This document shows, piece by piece, positions 6,127-24,724 of a stretch of 33,239 bases of DNA (its first letter is position 1; each line of letters begins with the position of its first letter). The position numbers were made by a program, and so were the translations under genes. The notes below the pieces were generated by a model. It did no database searches and was not told where the DNA came from. It saw nothing but the letters and a program-made list of their open reading frames with translations. The stretch comes from Acidilobaceae archaeon (lineage in GTDB: Archaea > Thermoproteota > Thermoprotei_A > Sulfolobales > Acidilobaceae). The DNA is taken from assembly GCA_027014125.1 (NCBI GenBank), contig JALWEI010000025.1, positions 1-33,239 of the forward strand. Direction: 5' to 3'.

Positions 6127-7866
6127 ATGCAGGCTCCTAGCAGTGTTTATGAGAAGTACCGGGGTAGGCCTATACTTAGGCTCATCGAGGAGGGCTACTA
6201 TAGGCCCTGGGAGAGGCTCCGTGTGAGGCACATAAGGGGAGGCGGGCTCCATGTCAGGAGCCAGAGCTGGCAGGTCGAGGGCCCTCTTAGGATGCTCTTC
6301 CACGTCCTAGACCCTGAGGTTGCCCGCGACCCTGAGCACCTGATAGTTTATGGGGGCACAGGGAGGGCGGCGAGGAGCTGGGATGCGTTCGAGGCTATAG
6401 TTGATACCCTGATGGAGATGGGGCAGGAGGATACTCTGGTTGTTCAGAGCGGGAAGCCAGTAGCGGTATTCAAGACCCACAGGATGGCTCCTAGGGTGAT
6501 CATAAGCAACGCCATGCTGGTCCCCAAGTGGGCCAACTGGGACTACTTCCGGGAGCTGGAGAAGAGGGGGCTCACTATGTACGGCCAGATGACCGCCGGG
6601 TGCTGGGCCTACATAGGTACACAGGGGATCCTCCAGGGCACATACGAGACCCTAGCGTTCGCGGCCGAGAAGCACTTCCCGGACGGCACCCTGGAGGGTA
6701 GGCTTGTCCTCACCGCTGGCCTTGGCGAGATGGGTGGAGCCCAGCCCCTAGCAGTCAAGATGAATGGAGGGGTGGCTATAGTCGTCGAAGTTGACAAGAG
6801 GATGATAGAGAGGAGGATCAGGCACGGCTACCTTGACACCTGGACTGATAGCATAGACAAGGCCCTAGACATGGCCATTAAGGCCAAGGAGGCCAGGAAG
6901 CCCCTGAGCATAGGCCTCCTAGGCAACGCGGCCGAGGTTTACCAGGAGATCCTGCATAGGGGGATAGTGCCGGACATGGTCACTGATCAAACCCCGGCCC
7001 ACGACCCGCTCAGCTATGTACCTGCCGGGATGAGCCTCGACGAGGCCGAGAGGCTGAGGGATGAGAACCCTCGGGAGTACGAGAGGAGGGCCCTTGAGAG
7101 CATGAAGATGCACGTCAAGGCTATGGTGGAGTTCCAGAGGAAGGGGGCGGTGGTGTTCGAGTACGGCAATAACCTGAGGAAGATGGCCTATGAGGCCGGG
7201 TACAAGGATGCATTCTCCTTCCCAGGATTCGTGCAGGCGTACATAAGGCCCATGTTCGAGGAGGGTAGGGGCCCCTTCAGGTACACCAGCCTAACCGGCG
7301 ATCCAAGTGATATAGATAGGCTAGACGACGAGCTGATAGCGACATTCAAGGACAACAAGAGGCTGGTTAGGTGGGTCGAGAAGGCTAGGAGACACGTCAA
7401 ATTCCAGGGTCTGCCAGCCCGGGTCGTGTGGCTGGGCTACGGGGAGAGGGCAAGGTTCGGGAGGATAATGAACACCCTCGTTAGGCTAGGCGAGATAGGG
7501 CCGATGTGGATCGGGAGGGACCATCTAGACACCGGGAGCGTGGCTAGCCCTTACAGGGAGACGGAGGGGATGAAGGATGGGAGCGACGCCATAGGCGACT
7601 GGCCCGTGCTGAACGCCCTCCTCAACGCGGCGAGCGGGGCCACCTGGGTGTGCTTCCACCATGGTGGGGGCGTGGGTATAGGCTACTCTATACACGCTGG
7701 CATAGGCCTGGTCCTGGATGGTAGCGATGAGAGCATGAGGAGGGCGGAGCTGGTGCTAACCAACGACCCGGGCCTGGGCGTTGTGAGGCACGCGGATGCA
7801 GGGTACGAGAGGGCCCGCGAGGTCGGGTGTAGCAAGGGTATATGGATGCCTATGATGGGATGCTAG
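6127..7866 (+). CDS. hutU: Urocanate hydratase (urocanase)
   Basis: Urocanase uses tightly bound NAD+ as an electrophile to hydrate urocanate to imidazolone propionate, the second step of histidine breakdown. The 579-residue length fits the family. Seen motifs: [12 protein letters not shown] (75-86), [14 protein letters not shown] (155-168), NAD-binding [12 protein letters not shown] (198-209), [13 protein letters not shown] (346-358), and the highly conserved [23 protein letters not shown] (471-493, in parts) and HHGGGVGIG (511-519). As I recall the bacterial enzymes, an active-site Cys precedes the GKGPFRW motif; here that region is [11 protein letters not shown] with Glu at 378 instead. 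No histidase or imidazolonepropionase gene is visible nearby. The metalloprotease gene follows two bases after the stop. Confidence 0.93.
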
Positions 7867-19052: not shown

Positions 19053-20915
19053 ATGGTTGAGGCCTGGGGATCCAGGCTCTACCTCTTAATGCCTGGGGCT
19101 ATAGCCAGGTGGTTCCAGCCCGGGGAGGAGGTTCAGGTCGAACTCCTAGAGGAGCCTGAGCAGCTCGGCAGGATCAGCGTGGCCCCTAGGGACTCCTTCA
19201 GGCTGTGGAGGCTGTGGGAGGGGGACGAGGTCCTGGCCTGGCCTCCGTGGAGTGGGAGGGAGACCCTGGCTAGGGAGTCCGTGGCTGGGGATAAGGTTTA
19301 CGAGTATAGGGTGCTGGCTAGGGAGGCCTCCAGCGAGCAGGATTACAGGAGTATAGTCGAGCTGGAGCAGTATCATTACGCGAGTAAGGAGGAGATTGTG
19401 GCGATATGGAGGTGCCCCCAATGCGGTTACTACATGGAGTCTAACATCCAGCCCCGGTGCCCCAGGGATGGAACCCCTATGAAGCTCCAGGAGATTAGGG
19501 GTAGCCTACCCTCCAGTAGGTTCCTCATCCTGGAGCTGGAGTCCAGGATGGAGTATGAGCCCCAGGTGGTTGCTTATGTCAGGGTTGATACCCCCATACC
19601 ATTGATGCACCGCAGGGTACCCAAGGATGGGGGGTATGTGGTAGAGAGGATGATAAGGGAGAAGGTCTTCCCGCCCGACTGGTTCCACCCCACCTTCTGG
19701 CCCCTACGGGGGGAGCAGAGGAGGCTCATACTATCCCGCTTCAAGGAGCTTGCTAGGCTTTATGGGAGCAAGAGGATAGCCCGAGCCGCCGTCGGGGAGG
19801 AGATAGCGCGGGAGGCGCTTAGGAGGGCTAACACAGCCGCCGCGAGGATAGCTAGGGTCGTCGTCCACCCCGACTATAGGGGGGATGGTCTAGGGGTCCT
19901 CGCGGTCAGGATGGCGCTCCAGTGGATCAGGGAGAGGAGGATCCCTGAGATGAGGAGGAGGAAGCATGTTGTGGAGACTATAGCCCAGATGGCCAGGTAT
20001 AACCCCTTCTTCGAGAGGGTAGGCTTCAAGTACATGTGGGAGACTGCCAGTGGGAGGCCAGTGCTCATGTACCCCCTGACGGAGGAGGCTAGGGAGATCA
20101 TAGAGAGGTTCCTGAGTGAGGATGAGTATGCTAGGATGCATGGGGGGAGGTTATACAGGTCTAGGCATGGCAGGGTAGACCCCATGCCTGGGCCTATAAG
20201 GCTGGTGGGGGTGTCTAAGCTGTATAGGAGTGTGCTCGACCTCTCAAGGCTCCCCGAGGAGCTTCAGGACGTGTTGAGGGCCTTCGGGGCCGAGAGGAGA
20301 GTGGTGGAGAGGGTCATCCTGAGGGATGTTACCCTCGAGATCGGGCCGGGCGAGGTTGTAGCGGTAATAGGGGCTAGCGGGGCGGGGAAGACTACCCTGC
20401 TCAGGATGATTATAGGCGGAGTAGCGGGTGTTAGCGGCGAGGCTTATACGCCCAGCGAGGGCCGGGTTGAGGCGCCGGAGGGTGTTAGGGTCGAGTACCT
20501 TCTCCCTGGGGAGCATGAGCCGTCCTTCGGCGATGAGACCCTCCTAGAGCATCTCTCATCCAAGCTAGGGGATCCCGCAACCGCCGTCGAGGTCCTCAAC
20601 ATGGTTGGCCTGGGGGACGCGATATTCTATAGGGCCAGGTATGGGGAGCTGTCTACCGGGCAGAAGGAGAGGGCTAAGCTGGCTAGCCTCCTCGCCTCAA
20701 GGCCCAGCCTCCTTGTTATAGACGAGTTCACCGCCCACCTGGACACTGTGACTGCTAGGAGGGTGGCTAGGAAGGTTGGCTCCCTGGCCAGGAGGGCCGG
20801 GATTACACTTGTGGTCTCCACTAATAGGCCCGAGGTTCTCAAAGCCCTTGCCCCGGATAGGGTGTTCCTGGTTGGGTATGGATCGGTGGCCTCAAGGCCT
20901 CCCGCCAGAGGCTAG
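19053..20915 (+). CDS. ABC-type ATPase fused to a GNAT acetyltransferase-like domain and zinc ribbon
   Basis: The 620-residue architecture fits COG2401, an archaeal ABC ATPase fused to a predicted acetyltransferase. In order: a unique N-terminal domain; a zinc-ribbon-like segment with C121, C124 and C136 (CPQC...CPRD, the fourth ligand would be D139 or absent); a GNAT motif with acetyl-CoA loop VHPDYRGDGLGVLAVRMA (271-288); then one ABC domain with Walker A GASGAGKTT (440-448), signature LSTGQ (533-537) and Walker B LLVIDEF (553-559). The usual switch histidine after Walker B appears to be missing (VVSTNRPEV, 588-595). There is no transmembrane part, so it is not a transporter subunit by itself. 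The cellular role is unknown. Confidence 0.88.
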   Translation: MVEAWGSRLYLLMPGAIARWFQPGEEVQVELLEEPEQLGRISVAPRDSFRLWRLWEGDEVLAWPPWSGRETLARESVAGDKVYEYRVLAREASSEQDYRSIVELEQYHYASKEEIVAIWRCPQCGYYMESNIQPRCPRDGTPMKLQEIRGSLPSSRFLILELESRMEYEPQVVAYVRVDTPIPLMHRRVPKDGGYVVERMIREKVFPPDWFHPTFWPLRGEQRRLILSRFKELARLYGSKRIARAAVGEEIAREALRRANTAAARIARVVVHPDYRGDGLGVLAVRMALQWIRERRIPEMRRRKHVVETIAQMARYNPFFERVGFKYMWETASGRPVLMYPLTEEAREIIERFLSEDEYARMHGGRLYRSRHGRVDPMPGPIRLVGVSKLYRSVLDLSRLPEELQDVLRAFGAERRVVERVILRDVTLEIGPGEVVAVIGASGAGKTTLLRMIIGGVAGVSGEAYTPSEGRVEAPEGVRVEYLLPGEHEPSFGDETLLEHLSSKLGDPATAVEVLNMVGLGDAIFYRARYGELSTGQKERAKLASLLASRPSLLVIDEFTAHLDTVTARRVARKVGSLARRAGITLVVSTNRPEVLKALAPDRVFLVGYGSVASRPPARG

Positions 20916-20918
20916 CTA

Positions 20919-20927
20919 TGTATAAAC
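20919..20927 (+). promoter_or_regulatory. TATA box for the resolvase-like gene
   Basis: TGTATAAAC begins three bases after the ABC/GNAT stop. Predicted start is near 20949, giving a leader of about 25 bases with a GAGGGGAG Shine-Dalgarno. Inferred. Confidence 0.55.
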
Positions 20928-20973
20928 CGATATACCCTCCCACAATCATCCCACTATCCCGAGGGGAGCCATC

Positions 20974-21297
20974 GTGGTGTTTGGTATATTCTCCAGGAGG
21001 AAGACCCGGGTTGTAGGGGTTCTCGTCGAGGGTGTGCAGGTTAGCGTGGAGGAGCAGAAGAGAGCTATAGAGGAGTGGGCAGCCGCCGAGGGGGTGAGGA
21101 TAAGCGAGTGGACAACCACTAGGCCCGGAGAGGCCCCGGAGGCGGGTAAGGGAGACCTGCTAGTAGTGTACACCATGAGGAGCCTGGGCGGGAGCCCCGG
21201 GGAGGCGGCTAGGGTCTACGAGGAGCTTAGGAGGAGGGGCGTTAAGCTTGTCCAGGTTGCTAGCACTGGGCCTAGCCAGCCCTCGATGGGGTGCTAG
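20974..21297 (+). CDS. Small resolvase-fold-like protein lacking catalytic residues
   Basis: The 107-residue product resembles the N-terminal catalytic domain of serine recombinases: VEEQKRAIEEWAAAEGVRI (residues 25-43) and GDLLVVYTMRSLGGSPGEAARVYEELRRRGVKLVQV (60-95, in parts) follow the order QxxAIxxya...GDxLvVxxldRLgRs...l...L..rGv.l. The catalytic Tyr-x-Arg-x-Ser motif is missing: the corresponding place reads VGVLVEGVQ. The DRLGRS arginines are replaced as well (MRSLGGS). There is no DNA-binding helix-turn-helix. It starts GTG 20974 (GTG 20977 also possible). It shares the CTAG stop with the convergent SplB-like gene. The resemblance is by pattern only; function is unknown. Confidence 0.75.
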   Translation: MVFGIFSRRKTRVVGVLVEGVQVSVEEQKRAIEEWAAAEGVRISEWTTTRPGEAPEAGKGDLLVVYTMRSLGGSPGEAARVYEELRRRGVKLVQVASTGPSQPSMGC

Positions 21298-22211
21298 CTC
21301 CACGACTCCAAGGTTCTAGGGCTTACCCGGGAGGGGATTAGGTGCACCCCGTCGCAGCTCCCGGCCCTGAACCACTGGGGGCCTGTGAGCCCCTCGCGGC
21401 ATGTGGCATACTCCAAGCCTAGCCTCCTGGCCTCCTCTATGACTGGCTTTAGAAGCTCCTCCCTGAGGCTCCGAGGCAGGTAGGTGTAGCCCCCGGCCCT
21501 GACGCCCTTGTCCCTATAGAGCCTGTATATCTTCTCTCCCACCTCTGGTAGGCGCCTCATCCTTGCCAGGTTATCGGGCCTGGCCTTGTATGTCGAGGTT
21601 ATCACTAGCTTGGCCCCGGCCTCAGCTAGCCTGGCTACCAGCTCCCTTAGCATGCTGGGGTCGTCGTTTATGTATGGTATGACCGGGTCCACCCTGACCC
21701 CTACTGGCACCCCAGCCCTTGTAGCCTTTTCTACTGCATGGATCCTCTCCGCCGGCCCCGGGGCCCTGGGCTCTACTCTCCTCGACCAGAGCTCGTCTAG
21801 CATGGTTATCGATGGCGTCACGGCCACGTTACCGCTAGCCAGTAGGTCTAGGTCCCTGGATGCGTATAGTGTCCCCTTAGTCGTTATGAGGATCCTCCTA
21901 CCCCTGGAGACTAGTAGCTCTAGCACGCTCCTGGTTAGGCCTAGGCTCTCCTCCTCCGGAGGGTAGGGGTCGCTGCTTGTGCCTATGTTTATGGGGAGCC
22001 TGGGGTCCATCTTCTCTAGGTCTCTCCTTAGCCTCTCAAGTAGCATCTTCTTGGGGCTGCTGTCCTTCTCTCCTATGTAGGCTGTGGCGTAGCAGTACTT
22101 GCATCCTATGCTGCAACCTGTGTAGGGGTTGAGGCTGTACTTGACTGGGCATGTGCATAGTGGGCTCTTCCATGGGTCGAATAGTTGTGCTACTCTTAGC
22201 CTTACTGGCAA
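21294..22211 (-). CDS. Radical SAM protein, SplB-like (COG1533)
   Basis: The 305-residue product has the radical SAM cluster motif at C33-x3-C37-x2-C40 (TGCSIGCKYCYA) after the family lead-in NPYTGCSIGC. Next come INIGTSSDPYPPEEE, typical of the SplB/spore photoproduct lyase-like group, then ITTKGTLYASRDLDLL and GVRVDPVIPYIND. The group name derives from spore DNA repair, yet most archaeal members have unknown substrates, so a photoproduct role should not be assumed. A TTG start at 22211 with GGGGAG seven bases upstream fits the conserved N-terminus; no ATG precedes the cluster motif. Confidence 0.88.
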   Translation of the reverse strand: MPVRLRVAQLFDPWKSPLCTCPVKYSLNPYTGCSIGCKYCYATAYIGEKDSSPKKMLLERLRRDLEKMDPRLPINIGTSSDPYPPEEESLGLTRSVLELLVSRGRRILITTKGTLYASRDLDLLASGNVAVTPSITMLDELWSRRVEPRAPGPAERIHAVEKATRAGVPVGVRVDPVIPYINDDPSMLRELVARLAEAGAKLVITSTYKARPDNLARMRRLPEVGEKIYRLYRDKGVRAGGYTYLPRSLREELLKPVIEEARRLGLEYATCREGLTGPQWFRAGSCDGVHLIPSRVSPRTLESWS

Positions 22212-22298: not shown

Positions 22299-22898
22299 AT
22301 GCCTGTCCAGGATGGGGCTGGTGGCGGAGGCTATAGGGTTCTACTAGTGCTAGTCCTGGTCGCGGCTCTCCTCTTTGCCCTGTCATCCTCGGTACAGAGG
22401 CTCTTATCGGATAGTGATGAAGGCTCCTATACATACTCAATAGCATGCCTGGCGCTCCCCGATATTAATGCTAGTGGCAATGCCACCCTGGAGGCTAGGC
22501 TAGCTGGTGTTCACGTTTCAATCAGCGAGGGTCTTATACAAGTGGGTCTACGCTACGAGGTATACAATAAGGGGCCCTCTGCTGTGACGATACTTGGGGT
22601 GGCCTCCTCGTCATGCTCCTTCAACCCGCCTGCTCCCCCGTCTTGGAGGGTTAACGTTAGCCAGTCCTATACGCCCGGATCCGGGGGAGGCCAGGCCTTA
22701 GGGCCGGGTGAGAGGGCTACTATGGAGCTTGAGGCCGCCATATATGCCCCTGACCTTAGGAGGGGCGCTATACTGGATAGTGGCTCCTTTACAATTGTCG
22801 CCGGTTTTGACCCGGAGAAGGGCCTTGTGATCCCCTATAGCTGGGAGCCTGTCGAAATAATCGTTGAGGGGTTGAACGTCACGGTCTCCGCCCGCTAG
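22299..22898 (+). CDS. N-terminally anchored extracytoplasmic protein of unknown function
   Basis: No family was recognised. The 199-residue product has one N-terminal hydrophobic segment, VLLVLVLVAALLFALSSSV (about 14-32), preceded by a short mostly uncharged start, and should place the remaining 165 residues outside the membrane. That part is rich in beta-strand-like, small-residue sequence with several N-glycosylation sequons (NAS, NAT, NVS, NVT). It has two cysteines (IACLALP and SSSCSFN) and a repeated layout of a short strand with Gly/Pro turns, as in beta-sandwich domains (inference). ATG 22299 has GGTGGTG just upstream. It shares its CTAG stop with the convergent secreted Lon-like protease gene. 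Confidence 0.75.
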   Translation: MPVQDGAGGGGYRVLLVLVLVAALLFALSSSVQRLLSDSDEGSYTYSIACLALPDINASGNATLEARLAGVHVSISEGLIQVGLRYEVYNKGPSAVTILGVASSSCSFNPPAPPSWRVNVSQSYTPGSGGGQALGPGERATMELEAAIYAPDLRRGAILDSGSFTIVAGFDPEKGLVIPYSWEPVEIIVEGLNVTVSAR

Positions 22899-24724
22899 CC
22901 CCGCCGGGAGTATGAGAGTGATACCCCGACTATAACACCAAGCGCTAGCCCGAGGAGTAGGCCTGTGGCAACTGCTCCGGGGAGGCTTGGTGCGGCGGGC
23001 TCTTCGTCCCCGGTCTCCTCGGTGATGGTTACTGTTCTTGTGACTGTGGCCGTCGCCTGGGGCTGCTGGGTGGGTCCTGCTATCTGGCTTGTCTCCTCGT
23101 TGTAGCTGATTTGCATCCATGACGCTAGTATGGAGAGGTCTAGGTATGTCCATGCCCTCTCGGTGTCTCCCTGCTCCTTGTAGTACTCGTATGCTTGTAG
23201 TAGTGCTGCCGCCGCTTGTGATCCTGTTCTTCCTGCTAGGCTGTAGGCCAGTTTTTCTGCGTACGGCATTAGGGTCTCCCCGTCGAATGTGTTGTGGATC
23301 GCCGCTGTGGCCATGGCCACTCCTGCCAGGGATAGGTATGCCTTTGCTATCCTGCCTGGCTCCGCGCTTGCCGATACTACTAGCTCTGCCGCGGTGTCTA
23401 GGTTTGGATCCTGCGCCCCAGTTTCTGCGAAGAGTGTCGAGGCATATGCCGTAACTGCTTTGCCTAGGCTGGCTACTATCATAGTCTTGCTGTTAACCCC
23501 CTGGGGCTTGGGCCAGTCTAGGCTTGCTAGGAGGCTGGCATACTCTGCCATGGTCTTTGCATAGGCTATCATTACCAGGGGGCTGTAGTCTATTGCAGGT
23601 CCTGTTATTGTTATTACTCTGGGCAGGCTCCCGTTGTCTAGTGCCTCCTGCGCCTGCCTGAGGTTCGATGCTGCCATCCAGGTGTATATGGATGCCAATC
23701 CCCCGGCCTCAGTGTCTATACCCTCCAGCATGGAGGTGGTCTGGTTTACCGTCTTTATCGCCTCCTCTAGAAGTGGCGTTACATTGTAGTTATTGCTCTT
23801 AGCCTCCTCGATCCACGTGGATGCCTGTAGGAGGGCTATAGCGTCTACCATCTCCCGCGTGGCTGGGAAGTAGAGTCCGTGCCCCGCCAGGTCCTGGGCA
23901 GCCTTGTAGTGCTCCTCCGCACGGCTGGCTACCTCTTCTAGCCCTGTTCCCGTCTTCTTCATCGCCTCGTATGTGCCCTTGAGCCTATTGTATACTTCAT
24001 CCAGCCCTTGTGGAGCCCCGGGCTTGGAGGGGCTTGGCTCGAGGTTTATGCCTAGGAGTAGGTTTGAGGCTTCCCATATGCTTCCAGCCTCCCTGACCTT
24101 TACTCCTAGCTTCTCGCCCTCCTCGCTTAGGTTTACTTGTACTGGCACGGTTCTGACTATTGCCAGGGGACCGATCCTCTGAACCACCCTCTCGTAGGAG
24201 GTGTATACTAGCTGCCCCTTGGGGACTATGAAGAGGGTGCCCCCGCCCTCTGCTACCGCCTTTAACTTATCCTTCAGGCCTCCTACCGGGCCTATTGTGG
24301 AGTCCGGGTATATCATCCCTGTGATCACGTTTGGGGTTCTGCATTGTATCCCTGAGAGGGCGGCTATTGTTGCTAGCGTCATCGCTGCCCCCGCGCTGGG
24401 GCCCCCCACTATTATGCTTGGGGCCTCTAGCCTATAGTAGAAGTCGTATTTCTCTATGTCTAGTCCCAGGATGAGTGTGGCGGTGAATGCTGCTATCCTG
24501 GCTGCCCCCTGAGTGTCGATCTCCGTTGCCGGGCTTGTGCTTATGTACACTCTCCCCTCTCCTGGTGTTACCCTTACACTTATGTTGCCAAGGACCCCGC
24601 CTCCCCCTGTTGATACTGCTGCTATCCTGAGCGTGCACTCTCCCACGGTGTCGCTGTGTGATGGAATTGGTGTTGCCGTTAGGAGTGTTAGTATGATGAT
24701 AGCTAGGGCTATGCCCGTCTTCAT
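22895..24724 (-). CDS. Exported Lon-like (S16-type) serine protease, membrane-anchored
   Basis: The 609-residue product begins with a signal peptide (MKTGIALAIIILTLLTATPI) and ends with a C-terminal membrane helix (GLLLGLALGVIVGVSLSY, then SRRG). Between residues 60 and 200 lies a Lon-type proteolytic domain: catalytic Ser110 in VGGPSAGAAMTLA and Lys151 in GPVGGLKDKLKAV. It has no AAA+ ATPase domain, unlike cytosolic or membrane LonB, and matches the archaeal group of predicted secreted serine proteases (COG1750). About 330 mostly alpha-helical residues follow, then a Thr/Glu-rich linker before the anchor. The product likely works outside the cell without ATP. ATG 24724. Confidence 0.87.
   Translation of the reverse strand: MKTGIALAIIILTLLTATPIPSHSDTVGECTLRIAAVSTGGGGVLGNISVRVTPGEGRVYISTSPATEIDTQGAARIAAFTATLILGLDIEKYDFYYRLEAPSIIVGGPSAGAAMTLATIAALSGIQCRTPNVITGMIYPDSTIGPVGGLKDKLKAVAEGGGTLFIVPKGQLVYTSYERVVQRIGPLAIVRTVPVQVNLSEEGEKLGVKVREAGSIWEASNLLLGINLEPSPSKPGAPQGLDEVYNRLKGTYEAMKKTGTGLEEVASRAEEHYKAAQDLAGHGLYFPATREMVDAIALLQASTWIEEAKSNNYNVTPLLEEAIKTVNQTTSMLEGIDTEAGGLASIYTWMAASNLRQAQEALDNGSLPRVITITGPAIDYSPLVMIAYAKTMAEYASLLASLDWPKPQGVNSKTMIVASLGKAVTAYASTLFAETGAQDPNLDTAAELVVSASAEPGRIAKAYLSLAGVAMATAAIHNTFDGETLMPYAEKLAYSLAGRTGSQAAAALLQAYEYYKEQGDTERAWTYLDLSILASWMQISYNEETSQIAGPTQQPQATATVTRTVTITEETGDEEPAAPSLPGAVATGLLLGLALGVIVGVSLSYSRRG

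Follow-up and report, generated by a model that had tools for sequence, protein, structure and literature searches.

A small archaeal protein with a serine recombinase-like fold, an erased active site and an invariant terminal cysteine

The window analyzed here, a stretch of 33,239 nucleotides from an Acidilobaceae archaeon (contig JALWEI010000025.1), encodes at positions 20974-21297 of its forward strand a 107-residue protein (107 codons, from a GTG start to a TAG stop) that, with its counterparts in the same genus, belongs to the serine recombinase superfamily; the identity is strong. The protein is almost certainly a dead, exapted recombinase domain. Its catalytic losses, the selection acting on it and the Gly-Cys tail common to its family suggest that it has probably been recruited to a role distinct from DNA cleavage, and the best explanation, one we hold to be probable, is that the exapted dead core now works together with a functional C-terminal thiol arm. 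Dead, domesticated serine recombinases seem to be rarely described. The present family offers a compact example from cells: what was lost can be traced by comparison with a relative whose motifs are intact, and its lone terminal cysteine is a new invariant feature that points to a testable new function.

The original prediction had recognized in the protein the landmarks of the resolvase catalytic domain, and a Pfam profile, a pairwise alignment and a predicted fold all bear this out. The PF00239 (Resolvase) model matches residues 23-98 at E 1.2e-6, scoring 29.2 bits against a gathering cut-off of 23.3; most matches to this model in relatives reach 75-102 bits, so the score is a low one. All four members from the window's genus match it at E <= 1. 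The helix A signature EEQKRAIEEWA is common to the window protein and the serine recombinases. The best match outside the family in a profile search of a phylum sample (398 genomes) is L105, a serine recombinase of the HTH type whose motifs are intact, with the catalytic domain first and the HTH behind. BLASTP (a single comparison) aligns the window protein to L105 at 33% identity over 86 columns (E 1e-11), and in 1000 shuffles per comparison the alignment scores of the four genus members are never reached, whether against L105 (Z 13-18) or against a second recombinase, L083; both of these partners were picked by profile searches, so the BLASTP and shuffle results are not free of that choice, as the Pfam scan and the Foldseek and VIA results below are. 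Neither of the two outcomes named beforehand as refuting the original reading occurred: profile and predicted fold do show a relation to serine recombinases, and L105, whose motif is intact, aligns to the window protein without restoring the motif there. L105 is encoded at 1177-1824 on the minus strand of its locus, in a genome that is distant but belongs to the same phylum; of the live relatives found, it scores best against the dead protein.

Iterated searches bring in recombinases in mixed company. Profile A3 (8 sequences), run against 229 genomes of the class, has serine recombinases as its three best non-family matches and as 14 of the 20 non-family loci fetched; only those 20 were classified, and the reference profile was built from 11 frames, L041, which gave no frame, being left out. 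Recombinases make up one of four non-family matches (L036) in an early profile search and 4 of 11 in the phylum sample (L105, L106, L110 and L111, the best two included), while in the final class search 4 of 27 were recognized as such, including the best one, the rest being unclassified. When 638 frames are ranked by hhalign, the genus profile places recombinases first, second and third, with most IS607-type recombinases under unrelated proteins; the "recombinase-like" label used in this ranking is a regular expression that marks 42 of the 638 frames and makes errors (L107 is marked though probably no recombinase, and the recombinases L084 and L087 are left unmarked). An alignment of recombinases, A5, compared with the family gives probabilities of 96 and 95, values biased towards a match because the A5 members were found by the family's own profile.

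Several other matches were set aside. DUF4350 in Pfam (E 0.01, under its cut-off), ImuA' and LipB in NCBIfam (E 0.019 and 0.2, well short of their cut-offs) and PHROG 20291 (E 0.35) were taken as noise, a plasmid match at E 0.06 covering 41% of the query was rejected, and designed PPR proteins and TIM barrels from phmmer and profile searches were discounted, their repeats aligning to the EEL..RGVK helix. PADLOC gave no match at E <= 1, and a search of viral contigs with the window protein found no relative.

An AlphaFold model of the window protein, built from 4 sequences, has pLDDT 84-90 for residues 11-90 and below 50 for residues 1-7 and 98-107. From this model and VIA alignments, residues 12-98 (21007-21267, plus strand) are predicted to adopt the serine recombinase catalytic-domain fold, with the elements in the order strand 1, helix A, strand 2, strand 3, helix D, strand 4. 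Serine recombinase catalytic domains fill rows 1-38 of the best 50 from Foldseek, beginning at E 2.9e-5, and the best non-recombinase row among these 50 stands at E 0.015. VIA, which was run on 999 chains that Foldseek itself had listed and is thus no independent search, has serine recombinases in rows 1-27; the first other protein follows at Z 6.4. The Foldseek and VIA counts of recombinase rows include 3lhk and 3ilx, which we take to be IS607-type entries (their titles are silent). TP901-1 integrase aligns at Z 9.9 (rmsd 2.6, 84 aligned), and residues 2-96 of gamma-delta resolvase, the comparison proposed from the outset, at Z 9.2 (rmsd 2.5, 79 aligned). The window protein agrees with the PF00239 proteins used as comparators (gamma-delta resolvase, Sin, TP901-1 integrase and IS607 TnpA) in its fold, in how strands and helices follow one another, in the helix A signature and in the spacing of strand 3 and helix D. 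Unlike these enzymes, it is without the catalytic serine and arginines, the helix-B stretch (in this genus), helix E and the DNA-binding domain, and has a short Gly-Cys tail instead. As a side observation, the fold matches that score highest after the recombinases are to ribosome-bound HflX/GTPBP6 proteins (VIA rows 28, 30-32 and 39; Z 5.7-6.4); a deep link between that domain and the recombinase fold is possible, as is a merely common arrangement.

Helix names and catalytic roles of residues are used here as is customary for serine recombinases. The site of the lost nucleophile motif is residues 13-17 (21010-21024, plus strand), its register fixed by the alignment of another genus member, G003, to L105, which is ungapped through strand 1 and helix A; before helix A the window protein has two residues more than G003. 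Where Y, R and S of Y-x-R-x-S are expected, the window protein has V13, G15 and L17, and G003 keeps the Y, followed by G and L. The motif was sought in the window protein in every register, and none was found. At 21172-21195 (plus strand) the alignment to L105 places TMRSLGGS as the degenerate counterpart of ELSRLGRS/DRLGRS, a change by which both arginines are gone: their positions hold S70 and G73 in the window protein, and I and D in G003. The claim of an erased active site, based at first on these same two motifs, is thereby upheld.

Further losses, and the single C-terminal cysteine discussed below, go beyond the original prediction. At the junction between residues 55 and 56 (21136-21141, plus strand) a 12-residue gap relative to L105 follows GEAP and, throughout the window's genus, takes out the stretch of helix B and the RP arginine that it contains; at this point the model shows no helix. 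The chain stops approximately where helix E would start (residue 98 of the model corresponds to gamma-delta residue 96), and the protein ends 9 residues past the core, helix E and the DNA-binding domain being absent from both sequence and model. Helix E is described as the pairing interface of small serine recombinases, and IS607 TnpA as pairing through helices B and D (PMC6188088). With helix E absent, and helix B missing in this genus, the description of the protein as dimerizing loses its support: dimerization by the known recombinase interfaces is disfavored, and a dimerizing regulator is possible only by way of another interface. That the window protein has no recombination activity is, to judge from its residues, nearly certain. 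With the cutting residues and the DNA-binding and pairing parts all gone, a DNA-rearranging role is very unlikely.

The gene is nevertheless maintained, as had been proposed from its signals. Between related species dN/dS is about 0.1: 0.12 for G000/G001 (bootstrap upper bound 0.24), 0.10 for G000/G002 (0.17) and 0.11 for G001/G002 (0.20), with dS of G002 against the other two near saturation (1.1-1.25). The reading frame is without stops in all ten genomes that have the gene. By these ratios the remaining alpha/beta core is under purifying selection. A Shine-Dalgarno-like stretch, GAGGGGAG, can be read at 20961-20968 (plus strand), and both nearest relatives, G001 and G002, have GGGGGAG in its place. 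G002 has an ATG where the window gene has its GTG, in support of the start assigned here. TATAAA at 20921-20926 (plus strand), a possible archaeal TATA box, is identical in G001 and missing in G002, so that the proposal of a TATA box of the gene's own is only partly conserved.

Iterated profiles find the family, one copy each, in 10 of the 229 class genomes. These are all four genomes searched of the window's genus (G000-G003) and all six searched of a second genus, g13, in the same taxonomic family (G079, G080, G081, G015, G023 and G031); 48 genomes of that taxonomic family were searched. In the class search the ten members stand at E <= 4.1e-27, the next match being a recombinase at E 7.1e-4, and the phylum sample of 398 genomes has no further member at E <= 0.01. 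The proteins are 101-116 aa long, and those of the second genus are 22-31% identical to the window protein.

The second-genus proteins resemble recombinases far more faintly. None of the six matches PF00239 at E <= 1. Against L105, between 20 and 630 of 1000 shuffles reach their scores; against L083 the count is 0 of 1000 for G080 (Z 5.5) and 28-823 for the other members. Their profile, run through hhalign, scores best (33) to L107, probably no recombinase; the best recombinase is L083 (score 32, probability 55), the highest probability for a recombinase fragment is 64 (L087), and 24 of the 42 marked frames fall inside the first 56 of 638. The first profile steps link the second genus to the window protein at E 1.7e-4, then at 7.8e-6, 3.9e-4 and 0.006, and the shared tail contributes to the iterated-profile E values of these members. 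Profile iteration, length, element order and tail suggest that the second genus belongs to the family, a sequence-based assignment that is otherwise weak. Single-member matches to TusA (E 0.014), Lsr2 (E 0.0078) and others were treated as noise, though TusA would suit a sulfur role.

The C-terminal tail, GPSQPSMGC (21268-21294, plus strand), is called flexible from the pLDDT below 50 of residues 98-107, and in the window protein it is predicted to be disordered. All ten members have exactly one cysteine, which is the final residue and follows a glycine, and all ten end in [ML]GC. When the ten are aligned, no column other than G89, G106 and C107 is invariant. The tail was also considered as a tag common to many proteins. 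In the window's own genome P-x-[MLV]-G-C-stop, searched for as a DNA pattern, has seven matches, two of which are confirmed as gene ends, namely the dead-recombinase gene and a urocanase-like gene at 6127-7866; at L118 and L124 no frame of at least 50 aa ends in the tail, and at L121-L123 TGG is read in place of a stop. With only two confirmed gene ends in this genome, the P-x-[MLV]-G-C form is no general tag, and the idea was dropped. The gene at 6127-7866 (plus strand) encodes a 579-aa protein, urocanate hydratase-like by eye, that also ends in PMMGC, probably a coincidence.

On the explanation we favor, the protein would have arisen by loss from an active recombinase and would neither cut nor join DNA; its globular core would serve to dock on a partner protein, with the functional contact made by the C-terminal thiol on its flexible arm. 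The tail thiol is likely to be central to the function. Since this cysteine is the sole one of the protein, any disulfide must be intermolecular: a partner could be bound in a mixed disulfide, or two copies could be joined tail to tail in a covalent dimer, which would stand in for the lost helix E. Certain thermophilic archaea are described as using cytosolic disulfides (PMC3177088). The protein would be a carrier or redox partner if the tail formed a mixed disulfide or a persulfide; a shared metal site is a further possibility. A disulfide with a partner, or a covalent dimer, is a tentative choice at somewhat less than even chances, and a persulfide or other carrier arm is unlikely. The tail may also be conserved for a reason other than a thiol-arm role.

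DsrC, in which a flexible C-terminal tail bears a penultimate cysteine that carries sulfur (PMC3397948), suggests how such an arm could operate. DsrC/TusE is an analogy in the way of working, through a flexible tail whose last or next-to-last residue is a cysteine, and no relative; the cysteine is last and only in the window protein, penultimate in DsrC as that source describes it. The DsrC/TusE profiles gave no Pfam or NCBIfam match to the window protein at E <= 10, in a search whose HMMER filters drop most matches above 0.1. A more daring form of the proposal, which we consider doubtful, has a transposon-derived fold turned into a cytoplasmic thiol-arm protein whose core docks on an enzyme and whose cysteine carries or exchanges sulfur or a disulfide. 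If true, the serine chemistry of DNA cutting would have been replaced by cysteine chemistry at the opposite end of the protein.

Among other explanations, the one that survives best, though it is quite improbable, makes the protein a membrane-associated scaffold, in which a basic or amphipathic N-terminal segment tethers the core and the core or the tail recruits a partner. Four second-genus members (G079, G081, G015 and G023) do start with an 11-residue segment of helical moment 0.74-0.77 (shuffle p 0.000-0.10), but p is 0.14 for G080, 0.29 for G031 and 0.45-0.83 for the window protein and its three closest relatives, so that the amphipathic signal at the N-terminus of the window protein is not significant by these helical-moment shuffles; its residues 1-7 are, moreover, among those modeled with pLDDT below 50.

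Less probable again is a trans-acting inhibitor, a dead core that poisons live IS607-type TnpA or invertases in mixed complexes and so shields the host. Relatives often have PF00239 matches (29 of 60 genomes, with the dead copies of G000-G002 counted in), while in G000, G001 and G002 the dead protein is the sole match at E <= 0.001, at a completeness of 78% for G001 and 90% for G002, a distribution that would suit an inhibitor. G003, however, has the dead protein together with a strong PF00239 match (84 bits), and genomes of the taxonomic family that are without the protein (e.g. G005, G006 and G007) are also without PF00239 matches. Both dimer interfaces known from the account in PMC6188088 are damaged, helix E being missing, as is the helix-B stretch in this genus, and inhibition leaves the conserved cysteine tail unexplained.

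That the gene is a decaying insertion-sequence remnant, still recognizable and functionless, would fit the loss of the active site, of one helix and of the DNA-binding domain, as well as the low Pfam score. It is already contradicted, and highly improbable, in view of the dN/dS values in three species, of the frame kept open in ten genomes and of a terminal GC that stays invariant where the second-genus members have drifted to so low an identity. Least probable of all is that the protein is no recombinase relative but some other small alpha/beta protein with a general likeness. In favor of this, the second-genus members are hardly recognizable, many profile matches outside the family are non-recombinases and alpha/beta proteins of similar size look alike (other folds hold VIA rows 28-50 at Z 5.4-6.4); against it speak the pairwise scores of the window's genus to L105 and the clear gap between the serine recombinases that dominate the fold rows and the next fold.

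As a dead serine recombinase, the protein has its closest precedent in poxvirus F16, described as a predicted catalytically inactive serine recombinase kept in its lineage (PMC4304020, PMC11980589). F16 is the only inactive one that we recognized in searches of the open-access literature, and we recognized no cellular counterpart in them; a review on recruited mobile elements (PMC8987985) treats active DNA invertases. In a viral fold search with the window protein, OPG061 (F16) proteins appear at E 0.025-0.095. Both are dead serine recombinase domains, and the likeness is one of general kind: the four OPG061 models listed have 215-264 aa, in contrast to the 101-116 aa with a terminal cysteine of the archaeal family, and F16 is nucleolar according to those accounts, the present family archaeal.

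The surroundings of the gene were examined as a clue to function and then dropped, as neighbors vary between lineages. Upstream lies a GNAT-ABC gene (19053-20915; label from Pfam), whose stop is 58 bases before the GTG, and a convergent radical SAM gene (21294-22211; label from Pfam) overlaps the end of the dead-recombinase gene by four bases. The synteny with ABC/GNAT and SplB-like genes that had been proposed for survey holds in the three closest genomes (G000-G002), where both neighbors are found, and gives way to others in G003 and the second genus. There, with names read by eye and without a family scan, the family gene lies next to a phosphoesterase-like gene (G003), a dihydrolipoamide-dehydrogenase-like gene (G080), a Get3/ArsA-like ATPase (G079 and G081) or enolase and a FixX-like ferredoxin (G015, G023 and G031). 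The single-copy gene thus changes place within the second genus, beside the ATPase in two genomes and between enolase and ferredoxin in three. The ATPase that it adjoins (L055 and L057) has a CPG.C motif, again by eye. Further along the window, a 199-aa protein encoded at 22299-22898 (plus strand) has no Pfam match at E <= 1e-4; convergent with its gene is that of a 609-aa protein (22895-24724, minus strand), in which only a Lon-type C-terminal protease stretch is recognized (residues 104-169, E 4.7e-7).
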